Positions 1 to 22,844 of a stretch of 22,844 nucleotides of DNA are shown here, piece after piece. Position numbers and translations under genes: made by a program. Below the pieces are notes generated by a model. That model searched no databases, was not told the origin of the DNA, and was given only the letters and a program-made list of their open reading frames with translations. Each line of letters starts with the position of its first letter. Position 1 is the first letter of the stretch. Location: positions 1 to 22,844 of IMG/VR virus record IMGVR_UViG_3300028598_000012. One strand, given 5' to 3'. The DNA comes from a virus.

Positions 1-11
1 TCCTTAGATTT
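1..11 (-). promoter_or_regulatory. Ribosome-binding site for a gene beyond the left edge
   Basis: Read on the minus strand, the last bases after the stop of the glycine-rich protein are AAATCTAAGGA. They contain the same AAGGA-type Shine-Dalgarno core that precedes the capsid and tail-fibre genes here. This suggests that another minus-strand gene starts just outside the window. Nothing else can be said about it. Confidence 0.5.
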
Positions 12-1217
12 TTAGAGTTGCAAGGTGTACGTCGCAGTACCAGCAGTAACCGGCGTACCCGTAGAGGCTGTCACAGAGGCTACAAGGATACCGTTTTTGT
101 AGATGTAGACGCCGCCGCTTTCGCCGTCTGAGCCGTTAACAATACTGGCTGCTCCATTACCACCAGCACCATTGCCGCCTTTGCCCCTAGGGGTGGCTGT
201 TTGCGTCCCCAGAGACGGCTGTGTGACGGCTAATGCTTGGTGAGCCGTGCTTGCCTCGAAAGAGCCTTCAGCGCTGACCAAGGATGCATCGTTGACGACG
301 TAGGTTGCGTTGTAGTATGACCCGCCACCGCCACCGCCAGCTCCAGATTCAGAGCCACCATCAGCGCCATCACCGCCGGAGCCGCCAAACCAACCGCCGC
401 CGCCAGCACCGCCGCCGCCTTCGCCGCCAGTCGTCAATGCTCCATCACCGCCAGCGCCGCCCCAACCTGCGGGATGTGGGGTCGCAGACTGACCGTTACC
501 GACGGTGTTGGAGTCTTTCTCTCGCCCATCGCCGCCATTTTGCAGGGAGTCAGTTTTAGCCGGAGGATTAGTCCGATTGTCGGTGTTCGGCCCATCCCCT
601 GCCGCTGTCGCATTACCAGATTGACCGCCAAAGCCTGCGCCGTTGCTACTGACATCGGTTGCATTCACGTTACCTCCGGCTAGGCTGTTGCCCCCACGAC
701 CTCCGGTAGCGTCCGCCGCCGCCGTAGCGCCAGCGCCACCACCACCGCCGCCACCGCCAGCCACGGCAATAACCGTGCTGCCCAGCCGAATTGCGGATGC
801 ACCCCCGCCAGCTCCTGACGAGGCGACGTCGTTACCTCCCTTGCTGCCACCTAAGCCTGCCCCACCAGCAAGTAGCTGTAGGGTCGTACCAGCCGTTAGG
901 TTGACAAGCGTTCCGGCAACGTATGCCCCACCGCCGCCCGGCCCTGAGTGCTCTGTGTTAAGAGCAGCGCTATTATGAGGTCCGCCACCGCCACCGCCAG
1001 CACCCCAAAGCTCAAAGGTGTAGACGTTGGGAGCGTAACTCGCCTGTAGCATCTCGGCTAGAGACAGCACGCCCGTCGTCGGCACGTTGCCGCCGGATGT
1101 CACCAGTGACCGCCCGGTGATCCCGCCCCAGCGCCGTGTGGGCCGTGTAGTGGACGCCCCGTCACCGCCGAGTGACCCGAGGTTGAATATGCCGCTTTCG
1201 ATTATGTTTTTTGTCAT
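12..1217 (-). CDS. Glycine-rich tail-tip adhesin-like protein (ALK/LTK-type glycine-rich fold)
   Basis: This 401-residue protein is very rich in glycine. After a short N-terminal part (about residues 1-65) comes a segment reading VYTFELWGAGGGGGG, then GGGGAYVAGTL, then STVIAVAGGGGGGGGAG. This is the pattern of phage glycine-rich adhesin domains and of the animal ALK/LTK glycine-rich region, where polyglycine helices pack beside a beta sandwich. More glycine-run segments fill about residues 150-300. The C-terminus (about 350-401) is beta-rich and glycine-poor. An AGGAA ribosome site sits about 8 bases before the ATG at 1217. It is the last gene visible in the adsorption module, after the fibre genes, so a role at the distal fibre tip in receptor binding is inferred. 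No catalytic motif is seen. An unrelated low-complexity structural protein is the alternative. Confidence 0.75.
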   Translation of the reverse strand: MTKNIIESGIFNLGSLGGDGASTTRPTRRWGGITGRSLVTSGGNVPTTGVLSLAEMLQASYAPNVYTFELWGAGGGGGGPHNSAALNTEHSGPGGGGAYVAGTLVNLTAGTTLQLLAGGAGLGGSKGGNDVASSGAGGGASAIRLGSTVIAVAGGGGGGGGAGATAAADATGGRGGNSLAGGNVNATDVSSNGAGFGGQSGNATAAGDGPNTDNRTNPPAKTDSLQNGGDGREKDSNTVGNGQSATPHPAGWGGAGGDGALTTGGEGGGGAGGGGWFGGSGGDGADGGSESGAGGGGGGSYYNATYVVNDASLVSAEGSFEASTAHQALAVTQPSLGTQTATPRGKGGNGAGGNGAASIVNGSDGESGGVYIYKNGILVASVTASTGTPVTAGTATYTLQL

Positions 1218-1226
1218 GTTGCGTTC

Positions 1227-2024
1227 CTATTCGGTCACACTGAAGTTACCGTCGCCCGTGATCTGGAGGACGGTGTAACCAGCCACAGACGTTATTGGCG
1301 TAAGGTCGGAGGCGGCACCATCCCAGCCGTAAGAGCTAAATGAAGAGGACGGGTAAGCGACGTAGACAACACCGTCTCCGCCGGGGCAGTTTGTGTTGTA
1401 ACCCCCTTGTCCGCCACGGCCATAAGGTGTGCCAGTGGTGGTGGACACCGAGCTGGCGGTGCCTGAAATTTGGTTCCAGTCCCCACCCGCGCTGATGGAG
1501 GTGTTCACATCCGTACCGTTCACCGCATATTCGTATGCCGCCCCCGGCACAGACCCTGTCGCTGAACCCCCAGCACCTGAGCCTCTTGCACCCCGTGTAT
1601 TCAACGTCCCCCCGTCTGACGCTGCGCTGTAAGAGCTGACCACACCGTCAATGTCGGCGCTGGTCTTGTTGGTGTAATCTGCCGCGGCTATGTGGTTTGA
1701 GTTTAACCCAACGCCCCCAGCAGCCGTAAGCGTCCCAAAACTTGATGCACCGCCGCTCGCATTGAGGTAGCTATTTCCACTAGCCGCTCCGTTCACAGAG
1801 GTAGCTCCTGCACCGATAGTGACAGCGTAAGCAACACTTGGCGTGATCTCGAAAGAAGTCCTTCGGACCACAGAACCCCCGTTACCGCCGCTCGCGTAGG
1901 CCACACCACTGAGAAGCTTTGTCCGAGCCGAGCCGCCACCTACAACTAACACGTCGATTGAGGGAGGGGCCACCAACGGGTCCGCCCCGATGAGTCCCCC
2001 GATGTATGGATGTTTGCGTCCCAT
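1227..2024 (-). CDS. Second glycine-rich tail-fibre/adhesin protein
   Basis: This 265-residue protein opens with a basic segment and then SIDVLVVGGGSA, the entry motif of phage glycine-rich adhesin domains. It continues with short Gly/Ser/Ala runs alternating with beta-type segments such as AYAVTIGAGATS, ASSFGTLTAAGGVG and GRGGQGGYNTNCPGGDG. The segment GVVYVAYPSSSFSS closes the glycine-rich part. The last 35 residues, ending QITGDGNFSVTE, are a separate beta-type tail. It starts 3 bases after the stop of the preceding small protein with only a weak ribosome site (GCGAG), so translational coupling is likely. It shares architecture but no long identical stretch with the 401-residue protein downstream, so the two look like diverged or separately acquired tip proteins. 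Receptor binding is inferred from composition and position. Confidence 0.7.
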   Translation of the reverse strand: MGRKHPYIGGLIGADPLVAPPSIDVLVVGGGSARTKLLSGVAYASGGNGGSVVRRTSFEITPSVAYAVTIGAGATSVNGAASGNSYLNASGGASSFGTLTAAGGVGLNSNHIAAADYTNKTSADIDGVVSSYSAASDGGTLNTRGARGSGAGGSATGSVPGAAYEYAVNGTDVNTSISAGGDWNQISGTASSVSTTTGTPYGRGGQGGYNTNCPGGDGVVYVAYPSSSFSSYGWDGAASDLTPITSVAGYTVLQITGDGNFSVTE

Positions 2025-2027
2025 CGG

Positions 2028-2405
2028 TTAGCTCGCCGTTTCGAGGCGTTCGTAGCTACCCAGAACAGTCACGGCGGTTGCGCTGTTGGTTTTCACGGCA
2101 AGGTAGTCACCGTTGTTAAGGTAGACGTGGCTCGCAAGAACGTCGAGCGTTGCACCTACAGGGATACTGAGTCCGCTGACAAACGTGTACTCTGCGGCTG
2201 CACTTGAGTCGTAGAAGCAAACGTCAATGTCTGCTGCTGTTGTGGCGTCCTTGTTTGCGATCATTAGGCTGTTGACTTTCACGCTCGCGTCCGACGCTGC
2301 GATACTGTCAAGAACGTAAGTCGGTGCGCCTGTTGTAGTAGATGCTGCGATTTCGTAGCCTTTGGTCTCGCCTTGGAGATTGTCTACGGTTGTTATGTTT
2401 GGCAT
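2028..2405 (-). CDS. Small beta-rich virion protein of the tail-fibre module
   Basis: This 125-residue protein has no membrane segment and one cysteine. Alternating hydrophobic residues in VKVNSLMIANKD, DIDVCFYDSSAAAEYTF, GATLDVLASHVYLNNGDYLAVK and AVTVLGSYERLE indicate an all-beta sandwich. Similar small proteins occur beside fibre and neck genes in marine podoviruses and myoviruses, where they are usually labelled structural without a defined role. A good AGGAAACAAC ribosome site precedes the ATG at 2405. It lies between the fibre stalk ORF and two glycine-rich proteins, so a fibre-associated or decoration role is inferred. The family cannot be named with certainty. Confidence 0.55.
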   Translation of the reverse strand: MPNITTVDNLQGETKGYEIAASTTTGAPTYVLDSIAASDASVKVNSLMIANKDATTAADIDVCFYDSSAAAEYTFVSGLSIPVGATLDVLASHVYLNNGDYLAVKTNSATAVTVLGSYERLETAS

Positions 2406-2419
2406 GTTGTTTCCTATCC

Positions 2420-2896
2420 TTAAAAGACGATGGACATGGCTATTGCAAAGCCAGAGGTTGCACCAGAAGCAGGTTTATTCGTGAGATCAGCGTAATCACC
2501 AGAGGTTGCTACAGTTGCTAGGCTGTTATCCAAGGTTGTGATCGCCGTGGCGTTGGTCGAGATATCATTCTGAGCCGTAGACATTTGACTTTGCAGGGTC
2601 GTAATGTTCCCAGCGTTGGCCGTAATGTTCCCAGCGTTGGTCGTAATGTTCCCAGCGTTGCTCGCGATATTAGTGGTGTTCGTAGAGATGTTCCCAGCGT
2701 TCGTACTGATGTCCGAAGCCGCATCGGTAGGGAGGTTCAAATCGCCCTGCACATCTGCAACAGCCCTGCGTTCCCACTGGTTACTAGAGTTCCTGTAGAG
2801 GTAGTCGCCAGATTGAGGAGTGCTTGTGTAATCCACGTCACCCACGTTACCGAGGCTAGACGTGTTGAGTACCTGTGCCGCAGCAGCAGGGTTCAC
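2420..2896 (-). CDS. Tail-fibre stalk continuation, apparently split from the upstream fibre gene
   Basis: This 158-residue ORF starts with GTG at 2896, and the GTGA overlaps the TGA stop of the upstream fibre gene. Its N-terminus (VNPAAAAQVLNTS) is what would normally follow the GSAW end of a fibre bead motif, and the upstream ORF stops at GSA. A further bead-like motif, SGDYLYRNSSNQWERR, lies at about residues 29-44. Then come tandem seven-residue repeats of NAGNITT type (about residues 64-98), typical of a trimeric fibre stalk. Near the end is a tail-fibre signature, DYADLTNKP, followed by a short hydrophobic C-terminus (AIAMSIVF). It could be made by coupled reinitiation, by -1 frameshifting from the upstream gene, or be the remnant of one longer fibre gene. 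Its role as fibre stalk is inferred from the repeats and position. Confidence 0.65.
   Translation of the reverse strand: MNPAAAAQVLNTSSLGNVGDVDYTSTPQSGDYLYRNSSNQWERRAVADVQGDLNLPTDAASDISTNAGNISTNTTNIASNAGNITTNAGNITANAGNITTLQSQMSTAQNDISTNATAITTLDNSLATVATSGDYADLTNKPASGATSGFAIAMSIVF
2601..2705. repeat. Tandem 21-base repeat inside the fibre stalk gene
   Basis: Five consecutive 21-base units start at 2601, 2622, 2643, 2664 and 2685. The first three are nearly identical (gtaatgttcccagcgttgg plus two variable bases), the fourth is diverged and the fifth is again close. Each encodes one seven-residue step of the stalk (NAGNITT type). Because the unit is a multiple of three, gain or loss of a copy would change stalk length without breaking the frame. 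Confidence 0.85.
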
Positions 2897-3975
2897 GCAG
2901 AGCCGTTGTAATACTTGAGCTGTGTTGTGGTGGTGTTGAAGTAGATGTCACCAGCAGACAATACGCTTGCCTTCGCGGCGTTGACCGCAGCGTCAGAGGC
3001 GTAGGAGCCGAGGTATTGGTTTACAAACGTGTTCAGCGCAGCTTCAGCAGCCGTCTGTGCAGCTAGAGCCGCAGTCGCAGAGGCTGTCGCAGATGCAGAG
3101 GACGTAGTGTTGGCAATGTCGAGCCAAGCTGACCCAGTGTAGACCTTCATCCGACCATCTGTCGAATTGAAGTACAGGTCACCAGCGTCCTTGGTGTAGC
3201 TAACGCCACTGAGGTTGAGGTAGGTGTCTACCGCAGCATCGTCTGCGAATTGCCCAAGGATAACCTCACGAACAATGTCACGGGCGGATACGGCAGACGC
3301 CGCAGATGCCGCAGCATTCGTTTCACTGGTAGAAGCGTTGGACTCACTGGAAGCCGCAGCTACTTGAGACGCCGCAGCGTTGGTTTCACTGGTAGAAGCG
3401 TTAGATTCTGAGGTTGCAGCAGCCGTCTGAGAGGCAGCACTGGCTGCTTGAGACGCAGCAGCGTTAGTCTCGCTTGTGGAAGCGTTGGTTTCTGAGGTTG
3501 CAGCAGCGCTTTGGGAGGCGGCAGCAGCACTAGCAGAACCTGACGCAGCCGTAGCAGACGTGGAGGCTTCAGATGCTTTGGTAATCGAGGTGTTCGTAGC
3601 GGAAGTCACAGCGTCCGTCTGGGCGTTGATCACCGTGTTCGAGGTCTGATCGTTCTTTTCTTCGGTGTAGTCGCGGAGAAGCTTCATAGAGTCCCCGATA
3701 TCCGAAGGACGGAAGATTGCACCCGCAGCCCATGTAAAGAGGTCAGTGGAGAGGTTGGTATCTCGGGTAAAGGTTACCCGGAAGTTGTTTGGTACGTTCG
3801 CATCAAAGCGGTATGTCGAGGCGTCTACAAGACTTCCGGGGTGAGACCCAGTTACATCTGCGAAACCTTCGTCTTCCACCTTCACTACGACGAATGAATC
3901 GTCGAGATACGAGAAGGCGATGGTAAAATCAGTCGTCGCACCGTCAGCGGTGTAGACATTTACCGTATCAGACAT
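2893..3975 (-). CDS. Tail fibre protein, T7 gp17-like N-terminal attachment domain
   Basis: Residues 1 to about 115 match the pattern of the T7 tail-fibre N-terminal domain that fixes the fibre to the tail: DGATTDFTIAFSYLDD, FVVVKVEDEG, a YRF segment, and GAIFRPSDIGDSMKLLRDYTEE. An Ala/Ser/Thr/Asn-rich stalk with repeated SETNAST/SETNAAAS units follows (about residues 120-225). Then come two bead motifs: GDLYFNSTDGRMKVYTGSAW, and a second copy that stops at YYNGSA, just before the expected Trp. The ORF stays open to a TTG at 3981 and there are ATGs at 3978 and 3975. The AAAGGA site is best spaced (7 bases) for the ATG at 3975, giving 360 residues. T7 gp17 is about 550 residues, so this is the proximal part only. 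The distal part is encoded by the downstream ORFs. Confidence 0.88.
   Translation of the reverse strand: MSDTVNVYTADGATTDFTIAFSYLDDSFVVVKVEDEGFADVTGSHPGSLVDASTYRFDANVPNNFRVTFTRDTNLSTDLFTWAAGAIFRPSDIGDSMKLLRDYTEEKNDQTSNTVINAQTDAVTSATNTSITKASEASTSATAASGSASAAAASQSAAATSETNASTSETNAAASQAASAASQTAAATSESNASTSETNAAASQVAAASSESNASTSETNAAASAASAVSARDIVREVILGQFADDAAVDTYLNLSGVSYTKDAGDLYFNSTDGRMKVYTGSAWLDIANTTSSASATASATAALAAQTAAEAALNTFVNQYLGSYASDAAVNAAKASVLSAGDIYFNTTTTQLKYYNGSA
3305..3530. repeat. Degenerate repeats encoding the Ala/Ser/Thr-rich fibre stalk
   Basis: Three copies of a roughly 55-base segment (about 3305-3358, 3362-3416 and 3445-3500) encode variants of SETNAST-SETNAAAS, separated by Ala/Ser/Gln-rich spacers. 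The copies share stretches such as gtttcactggtagaagcgtt. This is coding repeat for an extended coiled or triple-helical stalk, similar in style to lambda-type side-tail-fibre stalks. Confidence 0.7.
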
Positions 3976-4001
3976 CATCAAATCCTTTAAAGAATAGAGT
4001 A

Positions 4002-4020
4002 GGGGGCCGCTTGGACCCCC
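4002..4020 (-). terminator. Hairpin after the ejection-protein gene, possible weak terminator
   Basis: On the minus strand, GGGGGTCC and GGCCCCC flank an AAGC loop with one bulged T, giving a strong GC stem 5 bases past the stop of the gp16-like gene. The bases after it (TACTCTATTCTTT) are pyrimidine-rich but not an uninterrupted T-run. It may act as an attenuator or mRNA-end stabiliser between the ejection genes and the fibre module rather than a full terminator. Confidence 0.5.
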
Positions 4021-4025
4021 TTAGG

Positions 4026-7000
4026 TTAAAATTGATCAGCGACGAAGCGCTTCTCTGCGTCGGTCCATCCGGTTGTCTGATAGACTTCCTCAAGTTCCTT
4101 GCGTATCTCTGGGCCTACGCTGGTTAAGGCGTACCTCAGGGCGGCATCCCGGTACTGAGACAGGAGGCCACGCCACAATTTGACCCTTGGGTCTTTGACG
4201 CTTGCTCCTCCAACTTTGAGAATGGGCTGGCTCTTACTGTTTACGTGCCGTTCAGCCAGTAACGCCCTCCATTTGCTATGCTCAGTCTGGTAGTAGTCGC
4301 CTTCGATCATTGCATTAGCGGCCTGCTCTAGGGTCATTCCGTTAATCTTAACGTCACCCTGAGAGATGGACTCTTGCATGAAGTCATATACGGACTGACC
4401 GTCCTGAGCCTTCATCTTGTGGTACGGCATTCCGTCCCGCTCGAAGGTAGGGGACAGAAAGTCAGTTCCTGTTTGTTCTTGGATGTCCGCAAGTTCATCT
4501 GAGAGTGCATCTACAGCAAACTCACGGGATACAAACGGCATGAACCCCCGGCTGTGCGAAGGTTGCAAGCGGCCCAGCGCATCACGTTCTTGGTTGATAG
4601 CCCCAAAGCCCATGAGCTTGAGAGGGCCAATGGATTTACCCAGTCTCTCATAGAAGTTGACTGGCTTTCCTTGGAACTCTCCGCCGCCCGTAAGGTCAGC
4701 TAATTGTAATAGCCAAAAGTTGAACGGCACGGCTGTCGCAAGGTTAGACGCTATTAACTGGCCTCCACCTTTGAAGCCATCGTCCAAAATAACCGCCAAA
4801 CTGTCCGTCATGTTTTTAAGAGAGGACTTCTCTAGGGTCTGGTTAAGGTACATCGCAGTGATAGCCCCAACAGTGTCGAGGTATTCTGTTGCTTGTTCGA
4901 TATCCTGAGCATGCTTTACGTGTTCCGCAGCCATACGCGCAAAGACGAATGCGTTAAGGAACGGCACCTCCATATCAAGCGTGTTGAGATACCTTTTCTT
5001 ACCGTTGGGGTAGCGGATACGGATTTGACCATAGGTTCTAGACTTAGGGTCAACGTCAATGAGACCCTCATCTCCGTCTCCTTTGAGAAGACCAATCGCT
5101 GACATTAAACCCATAGAAGTGAAGATGGAGTTAGCTGCGAGAATAGCACGGGTACGGGAGCGCACACGCATGTCAGGAGACCCATCGTCCAGCACCGCCT
5201 TTAGGTCGCGATGGAACTTACCAGCCGTTACCTTAAAGAAAGTGTCGGTGACCTTGTTATCTCCAGCTACGAGCAGGAACGGCGACAACGCGGTAGCCAT
5301 ACGTTCTTCCATTACGTTTAGTGGGGTGGTCACAAACCGCATGAAGAACAAACGCAGCATCATGGCATGGGTGGTACGTCCCATCATGAAAGACTTGATG
5401 CCCTTGTTGAGGGAGCCTGCGGCTGCATCAGACTGGAACATAGTGTCCAGAGCTACGTCTCTCGCATAGGAATCCATGATTCGACCGTCAGTGGACCGCA
5501 TGGACAACGCAGCTTCCTCGCCTTCCTTCATGAGATATGCCTCAAAATCGGCGTTGGTGAGCTTACGTTTCTGCGCCAGCTTCATAAAGTCGTCACCGTA
5601 TGTTCCTGCACGGGCATGGGTAGCCATTTCAGAGGAGATAACGATCTCTTTGAACATCTCATCCACGGCCCCCATGAAGCGGTAAACGTGTTCCGCAGCC
5701 TTCATGCCATGATCCAGAGACCCTTCTGCCTTAGACTGGCGGACCTCTTTGAGTGTCTTGTTGGTGTAGTAACCCTTGTCGTCAAACATGGAGTTCTCAC
5801 CGAATTGAGACTTACCTCTGCGCCAGAACTTACTGAAGGCAGTCATGGCATCAGGCATCGACTGTGCGATGGCCCCGTAAGAGTGCCAGAACCTCTTGAA
5901 GGACTGACCAGACGCCTTTGACCAATCGGCACGGCCCAATACACCCTCGATAGGGTTAACCACCGCAGCCTCGATCAGGTTAGCCATAGGGTTACGGATG
6001 GTCGCCCGTACAAAGTTACCTATGAGCATCAAACTCTGCGTACCTGTATTGAACAGTAGGTTAGCATTGGAGATGTGTAGAAGCTTCTCCAAGGTGGTAG
6101 GCTTGGTTGAAATCTCGTTAAAGACTTTGGCTCTTGAGCGCTTGTCTGTTGCGTTCTTAAAGGCTGAACCTAACAGTTGTACCATGCGTTTGTCAGAGAT
6201 TAGGCCACGGCTGGCCTGCCACTTAATGTCGGCTTCCCTACGGGCCAGTTCTGTTTCCGCTTTCTTTACCCGCTTTAGAGCGTGCATCGCATGAGAACCT
6301 TTAGTGCCTGCCTTTGCTATGCCCACTTGGAGTCGGGCCACCTGTTCCTGTAGTACGTTGATTCGCTTCATCTTTTCTTGGAACAGTTTATTGTCCATTT
6401 GATCAGCATTTGACGCCAAGTCCGCAATAATCTGATTTGCTCTTTCAACGTACATGTCTTGAAGCGAGGCGGCTGCAAAGATATTGACAGCATCGTTGGT
6501 GGACCACTCACTGGGGTCCATGTTTCGGACCTTGCCGTACAGCGCGGAGTCGATCATGTCCTCATCGAGTTGGTCCAATAACTTAAAGGCCATGCCTTTG
6601 AACATGTTCATGGACACAGGCTCATTCTGAAGCTTTTCCATTGTTTTGGCGAACCTTGTGGCAATGATGTCGTACATCTCCCTTGCATCGACTTCGTACA
6701 TTTTACCTAGCTTGCCGTTAGGAACGTCTGCGGCATCACCAAGCCACTCCGCACCGAAGATTACTTCCATTTGTTTCGAGCTTACACCCGAGGCTGTCCC
6801 AACCCGAACAACTGCGGTTGCTGCATCCAGAACTAGTTCATCCTCATCAACGAAATCAGGTATTTTGTCTCGATCAAACTGGAAGATTTCCTTGGTGGTC
6901 ATCTGCCCGGTTTTCTCTGCGCCATCAGCGATTTGAACATGCTGTTCGTCAGCTTTAGCGCGAAGCTCGTTAATTGACTCTACAAATTTCTCATCGTTTT

Positions 7001-10946: not shown

Positions 10947-10950
10947 CTTA

Positions 10951-11586
10951 TTATCCTACATAAGGGTTCATTGCTTGGCCCATGAAGCCGCCGCCCGTGC
11001 CGCCGCCCATGCCGCCGCTCATCATGGACCCCGGTACTTGACCGATCTGGCTCATGCGCTGCTGCTGGTAGTTATTGTTCTGTCCTTGGATCATCAGTGA
11101 TGAGAACCCATTAACAACAGGGGCCAACATCGCCATCGTGTCACCAGCCGTCCAGCGGCCTTGCATCACGGTGTTGATCTGGTTGACTTTGGTTACCTCA
11201 AGGTTGTGCAGGTCCATCTCGTAGGCATCTGCAAGGTTCTTACGCTCATCAATAAATCGACGGGCATCCTTGGACCATTTGCCCTTAGCATCGTTGATCG
11301 TTGCACGGATAGACGCACCACCGAGGTTAGAACTACCCGCCTGAGCCGATAGGTTTGACTCGGAGAGCTTCCCCATGAGTTCGAAGTCGAACCCTTGCTG
11401 TCGAATCTTTTTGTTATTCTGCAGGAACTTCAGGGAGGAAGTTTCTACCGCTGCGCCGTAACTGGCTTCAGCAGCTAATTTGTTAGCTTCATACTGTCGG
11501 TTTTGTTCTTCGATCCGCGCTTTCGATTGCGCAGCCGAGGACATCATTCCGAAGCCCATTTGGAGTACCTGACCGATACCACACAT
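10951..11586 (-). CDS. Internal virion protein, T7 gp14-like
   Basis: I place the start at the ATG at 11586, giving 211 residues and an N-terminus of MCGIGQVLQM. The frame is open to 11664, but an AGGAG site 9 bases before 11586 and the adjacent upstream stop (11588) favour the inner start. T7 gp14 is 196 residues and also begins Met-Cys. The protein has a small hydrophobic N-terminal helix (GQVLQMGFGMMSSAA), a long charged helical region (about residues 20-150, including ARIEEQNRQYEANKLAAEA), and a Gly/Met/Gln-rich tail with GGGMGGG-type runs. In T7 the counterpart is ejected early and forms the outer-membrane part of the channel. Gene order (gp13-, gp14-, gp15-, gp16-like) supports the call. 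Confidence 0.8.
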   Translation of the reverse strand: MCGIGQVLQMGFGMMSSAAQSKARIEEQNRQYEANKLAAEASYGAAVETSSLKFLQNNKKIRQQGFDFELMGKLSESNLSAQAGSSNLGGASIRATINDAKGKWSKDARRFIDERKNLADAYEMDLHNLEVTKVNQINTVMQGRWTAGDTMAMLAPVVNGFSSLMIQGQNNNYQQQRMSQIGQVPGSMMSGGMGGGTGGGFMGQAMNPYVG

Positions 11587-11587
11587 A

Positions 11588-12112
11588 TTATTTGCTCCTA
11601 AGGATTGGATGAACTGGTTCACCGCTAGGGTGAGCCACGCGGTCAAAGATTTCGAAGCCGACAAACTCCACCCACTTTAGGTGTAACTCGTTGTCAGCAT
11701 GGACGAAGTTGTAGATTTGCTCATGGTCACCCTGAAGTATCTCAACTTCATCTCGGGAGACCCGTAAAAACCCCATGACGTGCTTATCTACTGCTGTACT
11801 GCCCAAGCCCCAGACGATGCCGTCTTTGGTGGTCCCGTACATGATCAGTGGGGTGTCTTTGTGGGAGAGCGTCCGACATACTGTGGACTGCTCAAAACAT
11901 TCTGTCAGGGCTTGCTTAGGCTCCTGCCCTGATAGGAGCATGATCTCACGTCTATCAGCGTGGCGCATCGAGGCTGCAATAGCCCCGATGTCACCTTGTG
12001 TCGCTGGGCGAGCGTTATACTCGCCGCGCGTGAGGGTTGTGTTTGCCGAACCAATCGACGTGGAGGATCGTGCAGCCGAATGGGCTGTCGTTCCTGAGGG
12101 TAATTTCTGCAT
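11588..12112 (-). CDS. T7 gp13-like GNAT-fold virion protein
   Basis: This 174-residue protein carries the features of the phage gp13 family (GNAT-like, formerly DUF2833): ARPATQGDIGAIAASMRHADRREIML, FLRVSRDEVEIL, NELHLKWVEFVGFEIFD, and a closing GEPVHPILR. (The first stretch is given only in outline; its core is RPATQGDIGAIAASMRHADR.) In T7, gp13 is needed for virion assembly and is not part of the final ejection tube. The first 33 or so residues lie inside the end of the tail tubular B gene (a 98-base overlap) and are Ser/Thr/Ala-rich. No better start is available before the conserved block, because the next Met is already inside it. A GGAACGATA stretch precedes the ATG at 12112. The TAA is followed directly by the gp14-like start. 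Enzymatic acetyl transfer has not been established for this family. Confidence 0.8.
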   Translation of the reverse strand: MQKLPSGTTAHSAARSSTSIGSANTTLTRGEYNARPATQGDIGAIAASMRHADRREIMLLSGQEPKQALTECFEQSTVCRTLSHKDTPLIMYGTTKDGIVWGLGSTAVDKHVMGFLRVSRDEVEILQGDHEQIYNFVHADNELHLKWVEFVGFEIFDRVAHPSGEPVHPILRSK

Positions 12113-15100
12113 TATCGTTCCGAGTCATTACAGGCACACGCAATGTCCCTGAAGATTTCGGGAGGTCACCAAAGGTTGACGACGTGTAGCCTACGCGAGG
12201 GCCAGCATGATATGTTTTGGCTGGACGCCCACGGCTTGAGACATCCACAGAGAACGTGGCAGTGTCAGTGTAGGCAATGTTGATATAGTTGATTGTCAGT
12301 CGCCCATCGGTAACCAAGATTTCACCCTGAGGTTTCCGAGGTGCCCTCATGTAGAGGGTCGAGAGCTTCACCTCCATATCGTAGGGAATGCCCACAACAA
12401 GATCAGCAGCCGAATAATCTCCCTTAACGAAGAGGTTTCCACCCTCCGTATAGCGGTCGATATTTACGGTATGTCCGCTGGTCAAATCCCACACCTCTAC
12501 GAGGTTGGTCCCGTCATAGGGAATGGTTAGAAGTGTCTCTGGGTCACCGCTTGAAGATATCCCACTCTGATAGAATGTCTTTGTTGGGGTTACCTGCATA
12601 TCGAGACGCAGCAACTCATATCCAAATAGGTCTTGTTGGTCGCGAACATCGATCTTAGTGAGTTCACGCTCAGTTCCAAGGGAAGACACGCAGTAGAGAT
12701 AGTTGCCGTAGATACCGATAGATTCGATATCTCCGATACTCAAATCCCAGCGGCACCACGCAGATTGGACCTTAGTTTGTCCGTCGTACTCGAACTTGTA
12801 GACCCAGATAGATTGAGGGTCTGCTCGATTGAGTACAAAGACAGCTTTATTGTCGCGAGATGCTTGGATGTAGCGAGCATCACCCGTAATGAACTGCGGA
12901 CACTGGATCGTTAAATCCGAGGACAACAATCGGTCATCTTGAGCAGCACCCAAGAAGAACTCACGGGCTTGCGTGTATCCGCCAATTTCAGCCGTAAAGA
13001 AGGCAGACTGACCGATAGCATGGGGACGAACCGCTGTTGAGGTTTGGTAGTCTCCGATTTGCTTGGCTGAGACTGTTTTAGGTGTCAGAGCTTGGGAGTT
13101 CGTGTTGAGAGAGAACTGGCCTTTGTCAGAGAATAGAATTAGCTCATCCTGAACAGCCAATGCCGCGTGTATTAACTCGACACGTCCAAATCGTAACTCA
13201 ACGTCAACCCGGTTGTCATCTTCAAGTTGAACACAGGTTGAGCGGTAGAATTGCTCGTAATAGCTGACCTCAGACAGAACCACAGATTCACCGGCACAAA
13301 ACCCGAGCCGTCCCTGAAAGAGGAACACGTCACTAAGTTGTTGCCCCACAAAGGACGGGGTTTCGTTGGAAACAGCATCACCTACTGCACGTCCACGCCA
13401 TGAGTATGGCTGGACAAGCCAGCTACCATCACCAAGGCGGATCAGGACTTGAGGCATGGTGTCAGGGTCAAGTTCTTCAGCCGCATCAAAGCCTACAGTC
13501 TCAGCCCATCTACTACCGCTCCACTCCACGTAGTAGTCATCTGTACCGTCATCCGACTGGCCGCCTACTCGCACTACCTCTCCAACCTTACCTCTATCAG
13601 GTAAATCTTCGAAGTCAGTTACATTTCGACCAGCGTAGGAAGTGGAAGAATCCATCGTTCCAGTAGCACTATTCCCATATTCGTTTAGAGAGTCGATATA
13701 GAAGGGTTCAGTACAATTAATCTCAATCCGGCCCGTGCCTGTGTTGTAGGACGTAGCCGCAAAATCAGCTTCAAAGCTATTGCCATCACTATCAGTGTCG
13801 ATAACAGAAGTGGCAGCAATTGAGGCAGCAAGTTCACTGTGAGTTTGATCGTTGTTAGCAATACGAGTTGTGAATAATTCTACCTGACCATTTTGAAGTG
13901 TACGCGGATTAACAAGTACAATCTCCCTGCGGCGATCTTGGTTAGACGGACCTGCAGGATGAATTGACTGGTTCTTCTTAGGGTCAGAACGAGTGTCTAC
14001 CAACCTTGTATCATCAGTTATCGCTGCAACTGTTACATTCTGGAAGTCTTCATAAGCAGCACTGATGTAACACTGTTGATTAGTGGTAATTGTAATCTCT
14101 TCATCAGAGTTTATCGCTACTCCAGTAATCTGTAAGGTGATCGCTGTCCCATCTGATGCCGTAAAGGTCTTCTGTTTACCCGTAAGACGTTTCACAAACA
14201 TCTGCCAATATACAGAAACACCAGTAAAGTATCCGTTATCCAGTTCAAGGCCGGGGCTACTTACGGAAACGAAGCGAGTCTCGGACCATGAGTCGGCCCA
14301 TTCCCGGGAGCCTGTGGCAATCGCCTTAGCCGCATAATCGCCGTAGCTTGAACTGTAAGACGCGACTGGATGGGCGGGTGTGATTACGGTTGGGTGATTT
14401 CGCGTGGGCGGATCGTTGAACGCGTTGGATGTTTTGATATATTCCCACCAAGGGTCAGAGCCGTCTAGGGCCACAGGAACCATGTCACTAGCATACTCCC
14501 ATTCGTTGGTACGTATTTCATGGTAAGTTTGTCGGTGAGCTTGCATCAAATTTGAGCCGACGGATTTTAGTACCGTATCGGTGGCAGTGTGGTTGCGCCG
14601 CTTAAAATAAAGCGTCGTTCCAATGTCCCTGTAGTCTTCAAAGGGATCCCATGCAAAGGTCTGCTCACTCAGGTCCGAGTTAACGTGCTTTACCGAAAGC
14701 TCCAACCGAGCTTCGTAGCTTGGGCTTTTAGTGGGGGCAGTGGGGTCCACTAGAAATGCTTCTGAGGAATTATGTTGTAGTTTTTTATATTTAAGGTAGT
14801 GACTGGTACGTGTTTGCTGGGCCGCTGGTGCTTGTACGACTTCTTCTTTTAAGGCTGTCTGCCGTGTTCTATTAATTAGGAACGTATAGTCACCAGCGGT
14901 TACTGCTCGAATGTTCTTTGAGGGGTCGCTGGTTGTCAGATAATCTTGCGCCCGACTATCGAGAGTAAGGTTCATCTTGTCCCCGTACAGATCGTAAACC
15001 TCCACGGTTCCGTCTGAGTTGGTCACAGTAAAATATTTCTCGTTCAAATCACGGTCAATTGTATGAAAGAACGATGTTGTACCGATAGCGCTCGAAGTCA

Positions 15101-15263
15101 GGCTTGAAACGAACTCAGCGCCCCTTCGTTTAGATAACCCTTGGATAGCCGATGGATAAGCATTGACCATCGTTTGGGTAGCTTCCTTAATACGGGTTTC
15201 GGGCGGCTGCTGGGTAATGCCCCCCGTCAGCTTGCCAATATGATCAGTGATCTGTGCCATCAT
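12015..15263 (-). CDS. Tail tubular protein B (T7 gp12-like)
   Basis: This 1082-residue protein starts MAQITDHIGKLTGGITQQPP, the characteristic opening of T7 gp12-type nozzle proteins, followed by ATQTMVNAYPSAIQGLSKR. T7 gp12 is 794 residues, so this one carries about 290 extra residues. A Ser/Thr/Asp-rich beta region at about 290-600 is the likely insertion. The conserved core continues with SFVGQQLSDVFLFQGRLGF, ENVVLSE-like and FGRVELIHAALAVQDELILF segments, and WCRWDL near residue 830. The protein builds the tail nozzle below gp11 and contacts the fibres. A DxDxDG motif at residues 489-494 may bind a cation. Its start overlaps the gp11-like stop by 4 bases (ATGA), indicating coupled translation. 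The last 98 bases overlap the gp13-like gene. Confidence 0.93.
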   Translation of the reverse strand: MMAQITDHIGKLTGGITQQPPETRIKEATQTMVNAYPSAIQGLSKRRGAEFVSSLTSSAIGTTSFFHTIDRDLNEKYFTVTNSDGTVEVYDLYGDKMNLTLDSRAQDYLTTSDPSKNIRAVTAGDYTFLINRTRQTALKEEVVQAPAAQQTRTSHYLKYKKLQHNSSEAFLVDPTAPTKSPSYEARLELSVKHVNSDLSEQTFAWDPFEDYRDIGTTLYFKRRNHTATDTVLKSVGSNLMQAHRQTYHEIRTNEWEYASDMVPVALDGSDPWWEYIKTSNAFNDPPTRNHPTVITPAHPVASYSSSYGDYAAKAIATGSREWADSWSETRFVSVSSPGLELDNGYFTGVSVYWQMFVKRLTGKQKTFTASDGTAITLQITGVAINSDEEITITTNQQCYISAAYEDFQNVTVAAITDDTRLVDTRSDPKKNQSIHPAGPSNQDRRREIVLVNPRTLQNGQVELFTTRIANNDQTHSELAASIAATSVIDTDSDGNSFEADFAATSYNTGTGRIEINCTEPFYIDSLNEYGNSATGTMDSSTSYAGRNVTDFEDLPDRGKVGEVVRVGGQSDDGTDDYYVEWSGSRWAETVGFDAAEELDPDTMPQVLIRLGDGSWLVQPYSWRGRAVGDAVSNETPSFVGQQLSDVFLFQGRLGFCAGESVVLSEVSYYEQFYRSTCVQLEDDNRVDVELRFGRVELIHAALAVQDELILFSDKGQFSLNTNSQALTPKTVSAKQIGDYQTSTAVRPHAIGQSAFFTAEIGGYTQAREFFLGAAQDDRLLSSDLTIQCPQFITGDARYIQASRDNKAVFVLNRADPQSIWVYKFEYDGQTKVQSAWCRWDLSIGDIESIGIYGNYLYCVSSLGTERELTKIDVRDQQDLFGYELLRLDMQVTPTKTFYQSGISSSGDPETLLTIPYDGTNLVEVWDLTSGHTVNIDRYTEGGNLFVKGDYSAADLVVGIPYDMEVKLSTLYMRAPRKPQGEILVTDGRLTINYINIAYTDTATFSVDVSSRGRPAKTYHAGPRVGYTSSTFGDLPKSSGTLRVPVMTRNDNAEITLRNDSPFGCTILHVDWFGKHNPHARRV

Positions 15264-15859
15264 AGAATCCTTGTGCGCATCGATGCAAAGCGCAGAGTGG
15301 GCTGGTCTTGGAGGATGTTATAATCCCCTACGCGATCTTCTTCCTGTTCAAGAAGGACCATCGCCCGTTGTGCTTGGATTTGCATCTGTTGCAGGTCAGT
15401 GTCTGACCCGAGAATGTTCTGCATATATCGCGAGGCGGCATCGAGTAGGATGAACCTACGAGCAGCCTCCGTTAGGTCTTCCCAGTCCAAGCCTTCCACC
15501 AAATCCAGAACCACCTTGTCGTTAAACTTGCGGGTACGGTTCAGTACATCGTAAAGCTTGCCACCGCGGTCGGTGTAGCGCTTGGTCGTGTCGGGTCGTC
15601 CATCATGTCGGGACACCGCATCAACACGCAGGGTATTCGCTGGGAGAAGAATTTCTTTTAAGGTCGTAGGGGATAACTCGCGTTTTCGCTGAGTGTTCCA
15701 TGACCAACCCTTAGTTTGGATTTCGCGGGAGGTCGCAGTGAGGACTTCAAGTGCGATCTGTGCTTCCGCTAGGTCTTCGTTAAGGTTCGTAATAGGTGCT
15801 TCACCTACAGCGGCCAACATGTAGTTAATGGCCTCTAGCTTCGTTGTTGCTTGGATCAT
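15260..15859 (-). CDS. Tail tubular protein A (T7 gp11-like)
   Basis: This 199-residue protein matches T7 gp11 in length (196) and pattern: LEAINYMLAAVGEAPITNL at the N-terminus, EIQTKGWSWNTQ near residue 50, a beta strip with LPANTLRVDAV, and FNDKVVLDLVEGLDWEDL followed by AARRFILLDAASRYMQ. The C-terminal helix is Gln/Arg-rich. The protein forms the ring under the portal that gates DNA. An AAGG site about 9 bases before the ATG at 15859 supports the start. It is the first gene after the capsid-distal hairpin and its stop overlaps the next gene. Confidence 0.93.
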   Translation of the reverse strand: MIQATTKLEAINYMLAAVGEAPITNLNEDLAEAQIALEVLTATSREIQTKGWSWNTQRKRELSPTTLKEILLPANTLRVDAVSRHDGRPDTTKRYTDRGGKLYDVLNRTRKFNDKVVLDLVEGLDWEDLTEAARRFILLDAASRYMQNILGSDTDLQQMQIQAQRAMVLLEQEEDRVGDYNILQDQPTLRFASMRTRIL

Positions 15860-15887
15860 GTGTTCGCCTTTCGGTGAAGGAATTTAA

Positions 15888-15911
15888 GGGGAAGCCCGTT
15901 AGGACTCCCCC
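15888..15911 (-). terminator. Weak terminator-like hairpin downstream of the capsid gene
   Basis: On the minus strand, GGGGAGTCC pairs with GGGCTTCCCC around a TAAC loop, with one internal mismatch, followed by TTAAATT. The T-run is short, so read-through is expected. T7 has a partial terminator (Tphi) at the same place, just after gene 10, which raises capsid transcripts over tail transcripts. This hairpin could play that role for the host polymerase. Confidence 0.5.
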
Positions 15912-15929
15912 CTGTAGGATTTGTAACGC

Positions 15930-17048
15930 TTATACGTCAGCAGCCTTACGAACTTCGTAGAGGCAATCAGGGCGAAGCGTTGCAGCACCCATAAGAAGCT
16001 TGGAAACGAGCAAAGTACCCTGCTTGGCAACTGAGTATTCGGACTCAGTGGTGAGGTCTTGCAACTTAACCATGCCGAGACCTTCTGTGTGCATAAACAA
16101 ACCAAGGTTGTCAGATGCATCCACAGCATAGTCTTGGCCGAAGCCATCTGTAGGTACGCCAGCGTCTGCACCGTTAGGGGCATTCAGCGGGGTACGGCTA
16201 TCAGGGCCGGTGTTGGAGTTTGCAGTACCGTTAATCGCGAGGTGGTTCGTTGGTACAATGTTAAAGCCAGCAATCTTGTAGACTACTGCGTCACCGTAGT
16301 TACCGTTACCCGCAGAGAAATCAGAGTTGATAATCGTCTTATCGTTCTGGTTAATCAGGGAGTAGTAGGTGCGTGGTGACACGTACAGGTGACGGCCATC
16401 CATAGGGATGTCATGCTCATCAAAGTACGCGGCAGCTTCAAACGCAGAGGTAACGAGTTCAGCAGCGCCAGCGCCTGTGCCAACGTGCTTCGTTACTGCG
16501 TTCTCCATGTCAACAATACCCTTACCAGCACCAGAAGCGGCACCAGTGGCTGTTACGCCGGGAGCGCCGGGTACTTGTGCAGCGTTGAACTGGTCACCGA
16601 GACGTGCATCACGAATAGCCATCTGGAACAAGGTACGCTCACAGGTGAGAGCCAAAGCTTGAGCCATCTGCTTGCTGTATTCAGCGCGGAACTCGAAGTG
16701 CGTCAGCATTTCGTCAATGTTGTTCAGGAATACGCTGGATACCAAGAAGTCATCGATGGAAATCGTCTTCTCATCAGTCTTCATGGCCTGACCGACGATC
16801 TCTTGGCCGGGAACGAAGTGTTCAGCCTTAGCTTGGCCGATACCCGGGAATTGAGCGGTTTTGCCCCCCGAAATTGTACGGGTACGAATCTTGTCTTTGA
16901 GAGAAAACTTCTCATCAAAATGCTTTAGGACTTCACCGCCAAAGGTTTTGAGCAGGAGGTCACGGGAGTTGTTGTAAGCGTTAGCGCCATTAATGGACGC
17001 AGGAAAGTTAGCTACTTGAGCTGGGGTAGGAGCGGCTGTCTGAGCCAT
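15930..17048 (-). CDS. Major capsid protein (T7 gp10-like, HK97 fold)
   Basis: This 372-residue protein (T7 gp10A is 345) has the family landmarks: VLKHFDEKFSLKDKIRTRTI with GGKTAQFPGIG early on; DEKTISIDDFLVSSVFLNNIDE; CERTLFQMAIRDAR; the A-domain segment MDGRHLYVSPRTYYSLI; and the C-terminal ESEYSVAKQGTLLVSKLLMG followed by ATLRPDCLYEVRKA. A Gly/Ala-rich loop at about 155-190 and an Asn/Pro/Gly-rich insertion at about 270-300 are the most variable parts. A strong AAGGA site 8 bases before the ATG at 17048 and a separate leader suggest high expression. A hairpin follows the stop. I see no -1 extension comparable to T7 gp10B. Confidence 0.95.
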   Translation of the reverse strand: MAQTAAPTPAQVANFPASINGANAYNNSRDLLLKTFGGEVLKHFDEKFSLKDKIRTRTISGGKTAQFPGIGQAKAEHFVPGQEIVGQAMKTDEKTISIDDFLVSSVFLNNIDEMLTHFEFRAEYSKQMAQALALTCERTLFQMAIRDARLGDQFNAAQVPGAPGVTATGAASGAGKGIVDMENAVTKHVGTGAGAAELVTSAFEAAAYFDEHDIPMDGRHLYVSPRTYYSLINQNDKTIINSDFSAGNGNYGDAVVYKIAGFNIVPTNHLAINGTANSNTGPDSRTPLNAPNGADAGVPTDGFGQDYAVDASDNLGLFMHTEGLGMVKLQDLTTESEYSVAKQGTLLVSKLLMGAATLRPDCLYEVRKAADV

Positions 17049-17126
17049 TTTCTTAATCCTTAAATTGAGATATTTCGTTTATTGAAAAGAGCATGCCCCC
17101 GCGAGTGAACTCAGCGTCTCTCAGGG
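17049..17126 (-). promoter_or_regulatory. Capsid gene leader with strong ribosome site and a 13-codon mini-ORF
   Basis: This 78-base gap is the largest untranslated stretch in the head region. It ends with AAGGATTAAGAAAATG, the ribosome site and start of the capsid gene. Within it, a 13-codon frame runs from an ATG at 17094 to a TAA at 17053, ending 4 bases before the capsid start. It has only a G-run one base upstream as a ribosome site, so translation is doubtful. No convincing sigma-70 -35/-10 pair is visible. Confidence 0.45.
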
Positions 17127-17270
17127 TTATCGCCGCAGCGGCCCATCGGTATTCTTTGTGTGTCTTGGGGTATATGTTTCTTGGTCGTCACCAAGGCCGT
17201 TCCACTTATGAGCGGCAACGGTCCCCGGACCTGTGCGATATTGCGCAGAAGCCCGAGGTAGTGGGGTCAT
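17127..17270 (-). CDS. Possible 47-residue protein between the HNH-like gene and the capsid
   Basis: An ATG at 17270 opens 47 codons ending at TAA 17127. The product begins MTPLPRASAQYRTGPGTV, contains HKWNGLGDDQETYTP, and ends in a basic TDGPLRR. It fills an otherwise unexplained 245-base gap on the coding strand, and its composition (one Trp, balanced charges, no low complexity) looks like a real phage protein. The start directly abuts a 15-base perfect palindrome, so AGGA lies too close to the ATG to be a normal ribosome site. Translation might rely on coupling to the HNH-like gene that stops 24 bases upstream, or on a leaderless transcript. I do not recognise the family. The alternative is an untranslated structured leader: it contains a 6-bp CTTGGT/ACCAAG stem-loop. 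Confidence 0.5.
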   Translation of the reverse strand: MTPLPRASAQYRTGPGTVAAHKWNGLGDDQETYTPRHTKNTDGPLRR

Positions 17271-17284
17271 CCTATAATATAGGA
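17270..17284. promoter_or_regulatory. 15-base perfect palindrome with promoter-like AT core
   Basis: TCCTATAATATAGGA reads as a perfect inverted repeat with 7-base arms around a single central base. It overlaps the first base of the small ORF start. On the plus strand its core is TATAAT and on the minus strand TATATT/TATTAT, both -10-like, but neither side shows a good -35 at normal spacing. It could be an operator, a promoter element or an RNA hairpin over the start codon. Confidence 0.4.
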
Positions 17285-17293
17285 GAGGGCCAC

Positions 17294-17524
17294 CTACTGG
17301 TTCCGAGAGCGGTTTGTGGATCTCTTTTGGATCCGCAGGTTACTCATGGAGTTGTTCTTTGGGTTGCGATCTTTGTGGTCGATATCCTTGCCACGAAGAG
17401 CCGCTTTACCCTTCTTTTTGATCATCAATCGCCGTGCTTTCTTTCGCGCATCATTGCGACGACGCTGGGAAGGCTTTGACTGATAATTCTCGTATTCTTT
17501 GCGGTAGTTACGTTTAGTAGCCAT
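17294..17524 (-). CDS. Small HNH-endonuclease-like basic protein
   Basis: The preferred ATG at 17524 gives 76 residues; a GTG one codon upstream is possible. A GGGAGG site precedes both. The N-terminal half is strongly basic (KPSQRRRNDARKKARR). The C-terminal half contains KDIDHKDRNPKNNSMSNLR, the DHxxxNPxNN...NL signature of the second half of HNH motifs, with His50, Asn54, Asn57 and Asn62 (numbered from the ATG). The first-strand His and the zinc-knuckle cysteines of full HNH nucleases are absent, so it may be a minimal nicking or DNA-binding protein. Such short proteins are common in marine phage genomes near packaging and head genes, and a role in DNA processing or packaging is possible. 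It overlaps the o-spanin-like gene by 11 bases. Confidence 0.65.
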   Translation of the reverse strand: MATKRNYRKEYENYQSKPSQRRRNDARKKARRLMIKKKGKAALRGKDIDHKDRNPKNNSMSNLRIQKRSTNRSRNQ

Positions 17525-17744
17525 CACAAAAGGCCTCCCGTTTTGTGTTGTTCATGAAGACCTGACTGACGGTGCCTAAAGAATCGTACTTACTTGCGTA
17601 GAGGTAGTCCCATTGGCCGCACGCTTGCTCAATCCCTGAACCAGCCCTTGTCGCGCATCCGCTGATGCTGCTGATCAGGACTAAGACGCAGACCATCGGA
17701 AGCAGCGTCGAGAGCAGCGCGAGACCGTCTATCGGCGTCCTCAT
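17514..17744 (-). CDS. Outer-membrane spanin-like lipoprotein (Rz1-type)
   Basis: This 76-residue protein has an N-terminal signal: a short Arg-containing head, the hydrophobic run LLPMVCVLVLISSISG, and a lipobox ISGC with the acylated Cys at residue 30. That leaves a mature lipoprotein of 47 residues with two further cysteines. It starts inside the preceding membrane protein gene in another frame (116-base overlap), which is the classic Rz/Rz1 arrangement. A good AAGGA site lies about 8 bases before the ATG. In the family, o-spanin sits in the outer membrane and joins with the inner-membrane partner to fuse the membranes in the last step of lysis. It is less Pro-rich than lambda Rz1, so the call rests on the lipobox and overlap. 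Confidence 0.78.
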   Translation of the reverse strand: MRTPIDGLALLSTLLPMVCVLVLISSISGCATRAGSGIEQACGQWDYLYASKYDSLGTVSQVFMNNTKREAFCDGY

Positions 17745-17880
17745 CTTCTTTTTCCTTGTGTTGTTTTACAGCGGCTCTTTGAGAGACAAAGACAACCGCA
17801 ACCAGACCAAGGAATGCCGCAGCGACCTTGGCCTTACCTGCGTCAAACCAAGTGAGAATGAATGCTAATTGTTCCATCAT
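17629..17880 (-). CDS. Inner-membrane spanin-like protein (Rz-type), or a holin
   Basis: This 83-residue protein has one clear membrane segment (about residues 18-33, VAAAFLGLVAVVFVSQ), preceded by a weakly hydrophobic start. A strongly charged helical domain follows (KQHKEKEDEDADRRSRAALD) and it ends RMRDKGWFRD. The topology (N-terminal anchor and charged periplasmic helix) and the out-of-frame overlap with a lipoprotein gene fit an i-spanin, although it is shorter than lambda Rz (153). C-termini of the KGWxRD kind are seen in short spanin-like proteins of alphaproteobacterial phages. A class with a single membrane segment could also be a holin. Its start overlaps the preceding stop by 3 bases. 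No endolysin is visible in the window. Confidence 0.65.
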   Translation of the reverse strand: MMEQLAFILTWFDAGKAKVAAAFLGLVAVVFVSQRAAVKQHKEKEDEDADRRSRAALDAASDGLRLSPDQQHQRMRDKGWFRD

Positions 17881-18128
17881 TTACGGCTCTTGGTTCCAGA
17901 ACATTTCCATTTCGCCCGTGACAAACGCAGGGGTGAGTTAGGGTTCTTTGCCGCCTTGGAATGGGATTTCATCTGACCAGCGGACCTTGCGCAATACGCA
18001 TCCCCTTTGGATGTTCCGGGGCGAACACGGGGTCCACCACCTTTTGCTTTTCCTGCTTGGCCGTAGCTTACTTTTTTACCCGAAGAAGTGACTTTTACGG
18101 ACGCCTTGCCCTTAGCAGGTTTCGCCAT
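17877..18128 (-). CDS. Small basic phage protein with GDAYCARSAGQM motif
   Basis: This 83-residue protein has a Lys/Gly/Ser-rich first half. A conserved-looking block follows: RPGTSKGDAYCARSAGQMK at about residues 36-54, then NPNSPLRLSRAKWKCSG near the C-terminus. Two cysteines (46 and 76) stand in these blocks and could bind a metal. Similar short proteins recur in marine T7-like and other phages as conserved hypotheticals; I know no established function. It starts one base after the stop of the 47-residue protein, and its own stop overlaps the spanin-like start, so it belongs to the same tightly coupled string. Confidence 0.7.
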   Translation of the reverse strand: MAKPAKGKASVKVTSSGKKVSYGQAGKAKGGGPRVRPGTSKGDAYCARSAGQMKSHSKAAKNPNSPLRLSRAKWKCSGTKSRK

Positions 18129-18129
18129 G

Positions 18130-18273
18130 TCACTTCTTTTTCGGCTTAAAGCCGCCTGTCTTGTTCTTCATCTGAGAATAGGACTTAGAAGACACTGTAG
18201 ACTTACTCTTTGGGCGGCTGTTGCCAGCTTTCTTCCGAGCGTTGATGTTATCGTAGAGACCTTTACCGGGCAT
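18130..18273 (-). CDS. 47-residue basic protein of the MPGKGLY type
   Basis: The ATG at 18273 begins one base after the stop of the 220-residue protein and runs 47 codons to TGA at 18130. The product opens MPGKGLYDNINARKKAGNS and ends in a very basic GFKPKKK. It has about 15 Lys/Arg and no cysteine. The MPGKGLYxNI opening is one I recognise from short conserved phage hypotheticals of unknown role. Nucleic-acid contact or a head-assembly accessory role is possible from the charge and the position between scaffold and capsid. The tight spacing on both sides supports real translation. Confidence 0.72.
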   Translation of the reverse strand: MPGKGLYDNINARKKAGNSRPKSKSTVSSKSYSQMKNKTGGFKPKKK

Positions 18274-18274
18274 C

Positions 18275-18937
18275 CTACTTTCCTTTCTGTGCGTTGAAGA
18301 GGCGTGACCAGAAAGACCGTTGAGGCTTCTCTGGGGGTTGGTACGTCATCTCTTCAGGTGTAACTTCGATGCTATAACCACCGTCACGCCAAGCTTCTCG
18401 CAAGCCGTGTATCATCCCCCAAAATAACTCATCGATCACAGCCTGATCAGACAGGTCGTAGACGATGTTGAAGGCTTCGAAGCCGGGAGCAGCGCTAGAA
18501 CGAGCGCCTGCTTCCCACTTCCCCATAGCGACCATCACTTGGTACAGCCGGAGGTATCCCGCAGGGTCGCCCCATAGGTCGATCACCTCGTACATGCCAA
18601 GGCCAGCGTCGCGAGCTACAGTGTTACCGTAGGTGTCGGAGTTACCTGTGGAGTATGCCTTCATAATTGCAGCGATGTTCGTCTGCCCCGGCTTAACTTC
18701 AGCACGTCGAATGACGTAGTGTCCGTAATAGGCCGCACCGCCATATACTGAGTTAAAGGCCGGGGTAGGTAATTGGGAACCATCTGAGGCAGGCAGTGTG
18801 GCTGTATCGATTGCGCCGAACCTTGCCTCATGATTGTCACGACTGGCACCGATGGCCCCAATGTTTCGTAATCGAACACTGGCAGGCACAGACTTGTCGT
18901 GTAGGTCGTAGGCCCAAGGGCCAGTGTAGATTTTCAT
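18275..18937 (-). CDS. Unknown 220-residue protein between scaffold and capsid genes
   Basis: This is a soluble-looking protein with no cysteine, no signal and no membrane segment. Visible blocks are MKIYTGPWAYDLHD at the N-terminus, PAFNSVYGGAAYYGHYVIRR near residue 60-80, the helical YLRLYQVMVAMGKWEAGARS near 130-150, and DELFWGMIHGLREAWRDGGY near 170-190. The C-terminus is basic and aromatic (RSFWSRLFNAQKGK), a tail that could bind capsid, nucleic acid or membrane. I do not recognise the family and assign no function. It starts 9 bases after the scaffold gene with an AGGG-type site and is followed after one base by the MPGKGLY gene. Position suggests a role in head morphogenesis, but it may equally be a cargo gene. 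Confidence 0.75.
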   Translation of the reverse strand: MKIYTGPWAYDLHDKSVPASVRLRNIGAIGASRDNHEARFGAIDTATLPASDGSQLPTPAFNSVYGGAAYYGHYVIRRAEVKPGQTNIAAIMKAYSTGNSDTYGNTVARDAGLGMYEVIDLWGDPAGYLRLYQVMVAMGKWEAGARSSAAPGFEAFNIVYDLSDQAVIDELFWGMIHGLREAWRDGGYSIEVTPEEMTYQPPEKPQRSFWSRLFNAQKGK

Positions 18938-18946
18938 GGTGTAACC

Positions 18947-19690
18947 CTAGAGTTGCGATCGGCCCAGCTTTTGGACAACCGCATTATTGTACGCTGGGTC
19001 GGTGGAGTAGCGTGGGTCTGCCATCGCTTCCTTTACCTGCGCCCAAGAGTCGAAGCGGTCTGCTGAAGGGGCTTGACCACCCTCGATCTGTCGCACTGGA
19101 TCAGACGGAGAGTTGGAGTTGCGGCGAGCCTGAAGGCCATTCACAGCAAGCTTAATTCCATCCACGTCGTTACTTTCAATTGTACGGTTAAACGCATCGA
19201 TCTCACCTTCAGACAGGTTGTCCGAGGCCCAGCCAATCAGATCGTCGTAGCCTGTCCGACCGCCCACCGTAGACACAATGTCTTCTACTTGGCGCTCAAC
19301 TACGGCCTGTTGACCTTCGATGTACTTGTCTACGACTTCCTTCGAGTACCCAGCCTTAGCCGCTGCATCGTAGGAGTCTGAGGACAACTCACCGCTCTCA
19401 CGGTACTCCGCTTCCAGAGAGGGCAAATCCAAACCAGACTCACGCACAGTTTCTGCTGTCGGCACTGAGTCTGCTGGCGTGTCTCCAGCGCCCATCTTGC
19501 CTTCCAGCTCAGAGTACGCTTTCGCCATATCCTCAGGGGACTGGAACTTTTCTGGTAGCCATTCAGGACGTGAGGAGGCAGCAGATTTCTCTGCCGCCGC
19601 CGCATCATGGGCTTCCTGTACGAGTTGATCGGGGGTCTTCCCCACGGTCTCAGAACTCGTATCGATTGTGTTAGAGATTACTTCACCCAT
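18947..19690 (-). CDS. Capsid assembly scaffolding protein (T7 gp9-like)
   Basis: This 247-residue, strongly acidic, Ala/Glu/Ser-rich protein lies directly after the portal, as in T7 (gp9, 307 residues). The segment RPEWLPEKFQSPEDMAKAY, followed by SELEGKMG, at about residues 41-67 is the recurrent signature of podovirus scaffolds. The middle is helical (YRESGELSSDSYDAAAKAG, VVDKYIEGQQAVVERQVEDI). The C-terminal helix (DSWAQVKEAMADPRYSTDPAYN, given in outline) is the part that in T7-like phages contacts the capsid protein. It would direct procapsid assembly and leave before or during packaging. The ribosome site before 19690 is weak. Confidence 0.9.
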   Translation of the reverse strand: MGEVISNTIDTSSETVGKTPDQLVQEAHDAAAAEKSAASSRPEWLPEKFQSPEDMAKAYSELEGKMGAGDTPADSVPTAETVRESGLDLPSLEAEYRESGELSSDSYDAAAKAGYSKEVVDKYIEGQQAVVERQVEDIVSTVGGRTGYDDLIGWASDNLSEGEIDAFNRTIESNDVDGIKLAVNGLQARRNSNSPSDPVRQIEGGQAPSADRFDSWAQVKEAMADPRYSTDPAYNNAVVQKLGRSQL

Positions 19691-19709
19691 TAGGTTATAT
19701 ACTCACTTA

Positions 19710-22843: not shown

Positions 22844-22844
22844 A

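Follow-up and report, generated by a model that had tools for sequence, protein, structure and literature searches.

Layout of the fibre locus

The window analysed here comprises positions 1 to 22,844 of the IMG/VR virus record IMGVR_UViG_3300028598_000012 (22,844 nt), in which a tail-fibre locus is divided over two ORFs on the minus strand, read in different frames and overlapping by four bases (Table 1). The upstream ORF encodes a T7-type N-terminal anchor, Ala/Ser/Asn-rich coiled-coil-like repeats, a first bead ending in YTGSAW (AGDLYFNSTDGRMKVYTGSAW) and most of a second bead (AGDIYFNTTTTQLKYYNGSA), which breaks off one residue short of the Trp, with the C-terminus reading TTQLKYYNGSA*; both bead ends are as described in the first-pass annotation. 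The downstream ORF has V(M)NPAAAAQ as N-terminus, and contains the end of the second bead, a spacer, heptad-like NAGNITT/NAGNITA repeats and the C-terminal end of the fibre.

Table 1. Features at the fibre locus and in the adjacent genes of the window, named according to the interpretation given in the text
Feature	Position	Strand	Details
5′ part of tail-fibre gene	2893..3978	-	ATG at 3978; 361 aa; premature TGA at 2895-2893
3′ part of same fibre gene, -1 frame	2420..2896	-	GTG at 2896; 158 aa; TAA ending at 2420
Break point, GTGA overlap (4 bases)	2893..2896	-	One base shorter than the relatives L002, L003, L004 and L006, inside the Trp codon
Downstream ORF, 125 aa, apart from the broken gene	2028..2405	-	AAGGATAGGAAAC upstream; no Pfam or PHROG match
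Glycine-rich protein Gly_rich_2, possible tip or adhesin component	1227..2024	-	PF21722, E 4.2e-12

The N-terminus of the fibre corresponds to the PF03906 domain (Phage_T7_tail; residues 5-139, 30.6 bits against a cut-off of 25.2), and numerous PHROG tail-fibre families are hit by the remainder of the protein, chiefly by way of its repeats. The surroundings are those of the virion genes of a T7-like podovirus, with a minus-strand gene order and an ORF at 12015-15263 similar to tail tubular protein B from many T7-like phages, most closely to that of Roseobacter and Pelagibacter podophages (about 30% identity). The N-terminal half of this tail-tubular-B-like gene (13513-15048) is the main stretch of the window for which the L005 and L003 contigs offer no close DNA match, although both flanks match well. 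Two glycine-rich proteins are encoded on the minus strand after the fibre, one at 12-1217 and the other being the Gly_rich_2 protein of Table 1, so that the receptor-binding parts may be divided among several small genes. Elsewhere on the minus strand, two overlapping ORFs at 17514-17880 are located between scaffold-like and capsid-like genes and resemble, by eye only, an Rz/Rz1 spanin pair, as one contains a transmembrane-like segment and the other a lipobox-like SISGC. A small ORF at 17294-17527, immediately upstream of the capsid-like gene, resembles an HNH-type endonuclease (GKDIDHKDRNPKNNSMSNLR), again by eye.

Beads of the form GD-[LI]-YFNTT...LKYYNGSAW occur widely across IMG/VR contigs. 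Trp ends 45 of the 56 distinct motif matches, a count that is biased by the use of KYYNGSAW among the search seeds. Two related beads have Phe in place of the final Trp (GSAF), and the remaining non-Trp matches look like unrelated sequences picked up by the loose search expression. The Trp is also kept in MRVYDGSSW and LKFYSGTAW beads, which were found with other seeds. Among genome contigs, distant bead matches were limited to one Pelagibacter MAG and one Polaribacter MAG, and both have the Trp.

Relatives carry a single fibre frame

A search of the viral_contigs collection with the upstream part of the gene identified six close relatives, four of which (L002, L003, L004 and L006) span the junction; the contigs concerned are 3300020169_001340 (L002), 3300009495_000076, 3300025849_003189 and 3300025640_000239. 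All four have one continuous open fibre frame reading YYNGSAWNPAAAAQ (YYNGSAW-NPAAAAQ), with KYYNGSAWNPAAAAQ at the junction, each is one base longer than the window at this position, and the split two-frame layout is absent from every one of them. Alignment to homologous fibre genes, as had been proposed in the first-pass annotation, hence shows the two parts fused and carrying GSAW-NP in 4/4 spanning relatives. Counted from its ATG, the intact fibre of L002 has 519 aa; those of L003 and L004 have about 654 aa, and L006 is cut at its 5′ end.

The closest comparison is with L002, the fibre gene of which has the same start, C-terminal stop and bead motifs as the window, but is continuous and one base longer at the junction; the residues of the 3′ part in the window form the C-terminal portion of its single 519-aa protein. 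Identity between the two is 99.95% over 1964 bases (fibre and next gene), where the junction indel is the sole difference, and over window positions 1-4538 (about 4.5 kb) the differences consist of this one-base gap and substitutions at 35 and 4010. When viral_contigs was scanned with a pattern tolerating 0-2 bases at the junction, the same four contigs were returned and no others, and a wider search with the bead region gave these four at 95-100% plus many distant bead carriers; the scans may omit the records nearest to the window, so that the broken form could be present in further records. Annotated phages were of no help in deciding the matter, since a nucleotide search with the region gave only short, partial matches among them, several in annotated tail or tail-fibre genes, and a tblastn search with the intact fibre gave no match; it was the IMG/VR contigs that settled it.

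Two further differences between the window and its relatives lie away from the junction. L003, L004 and L006 match the window fibre at about 95-98% down to about position 2719, after which they have an unrelated, longer C-terminal part; the C-terminal third of the fibre, from 2718 downwards in the window, is on these alignments an apparent tip exchange between near-identical phages. A sharply bounded diverged patch relative to L002 is present at 4710-5921 inside a 1453-aa ORF, with the fibre side almost without differences, and looks like a recombination patch.

A single base missing from a Trp codon

With near-identical relatives that are intact, and an indel at the junction that is not a multiple of three, we are nearly certain that both ORFs represent one ordinary tail-fibre gene of a T7-like marine podovirus, with one base missing in a Trp codon. 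The codon order of the intact gene is Ala-Trp-Asn. With one base gone from the Trp codon of the second bead, the original frame reads GCG-TGA and runs onto a stop, and the -1 frame reads GTG-AAC and stays open for the remainder of the gene. The four-base GTGA overlap with its GTG start arises because the TGG that has lost a base is preceded by a codon with G as its last letter, and is an accidental by-product of the base loss. The overlapping GTG opening VNPAAAAQ, to which the first-pass annotation drew attention, does start a real ORF, but its Val is no additional residue and represents the remnant of the Trp codon, as the relatives read GSA-W-NPAAAA. A match to phrog_29482 also favours a single gene, as it extends past the junction in the intact protein (293-379) but reaches no further than the break in the window fragment (293-361).

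The locus had been explained in three possible ways, as one gene interrupted by a small deletion, as a programmed frameshift or as a coupled split. The fused genes in all four relatives support the first, and the other two are unsupported. A programmed -1 frameshift at the GTGA overlap would yield a short and a long fibre, and the downstream frame is indeed the -1 frame and fully open. It is open only from 2947, which leaves an overlap of 55 nt (2947-2893) for any shift, and a heptamer scan of this overlap found neither an X XXY YYZ slippery heptamer nor a near match to one. The two-frame arrangement is not conserved in any relative, 4/4 being fused in one frame, the frameshift product would miss the Trp kept by related beads, and the near-identical, intact gene of L002 comes close to refuting the mechanism, so that we regard the probability of programmed frameshifting as practically negligible. 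It is likewise very improbable that the gene was deliberately split, with translational coupling producing the 158-aa C-terminal piece by reinitiation at the overlapping GTG. Coupled genes typically show overlaps of the GTGA type, but here the overlap is automatic once one base of TGG is lost after a G-ending codon, there is no Shine-Dalgarno sequence in the 20 bases (AAGTATTACAACGGCTCTGC) preceding the GTG, and the first in-frame ATG after the GTG is located only at 2584. No relative shares the split, and the C-terminal fragment has no family match beyond weak ones that are probably driven by the repeats. The suggested mixture of two fibre lengths thus has no support, as no relative is split, the overlap lacks a slippery heptamer and the GTG lacks a preceding Shine-Dalgarno sequence; a search of the literature on tail fibres with frameshifts or two forms found nothing bearing on this case among the papers listed. 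We also give very little credence to a real phage haplotype in which the broken gene makes a 361-residue fibre together with a reinitiated C-terminal piece, resulting in an altered or mixed fibre population. The two ORFs should therefore neither be annotated as separate proteins nor be cited as a fibre-length switch.

Within the reading as one gene lacking one base, the missing base reflects either an error in assembly or sequencing, which we consider probable, or a real and recent loss-of-function mutation marking a defective or altered haplotype in the phage population, which is possible but the less expected of the two; our preference for error is judged rather than measured. The break stands alone, with no other clear frame-breaking indel in about 21 kb compared with near relatives (window 1-6048 against L002, 3269-13513 against the L005 contig (L005, L032) and 15048-22844 against L039), which indicates that the record is not generally indel-ridden and counts in favour of a real mutation. 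The other gaps are a compensating +2/-2 pair at 13437/13431, gaps in a strongly diverged patch around 5210-5420 with a net length change of 12 bases, a multiple of three, and a cluster relative to L033 near 10950-11033 at a variable gene end, where L032 is gapless. The break site is not a long homopolymer, and nothing obvious would make an error likely at precisely this position. Against a real mutation, a lytic T7-like phage lacking an intact fibre is expected to lose adsorption, and the L005 and L007 contigs end inside the repeat-rich fibre gene, which suggests that this locus is hard to assemble. If real, the mutation would probably inactivate the fibre and, as the gene shows no further decay, would have to be recent, and it would mark only one defective or altered haplotype in the marine phage population.

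Comparison with known systems

Programmed -1 frameshifting is known from phage structural genes such as lambda gpG/gpGT and T7 gp10A/10B, with which the window shares a downstream frame in -1, but from which it differs in having no slippery heptamer, no conservation of the arrangement, and homologues that are intact and fused. The closer counterpart is the T7 gp17-type fibre. The window shares with it an N-terminal anchor scoring above the gathering threshold and a gene position directly downstream of long ORFs resembling internal virion proteins. The Pfam T7 domain covers only the N-terminus, and the rest of the window fibre consists of Ala/Ser/Asn repeats, GD-YF...YxGSAW beads and NAGNITT heptads, with a tip that varies even among close relatives. 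From its family we infer that the intact fibre would form a trimeric stalk carrying GD-x-YF...YxGSAW beads.
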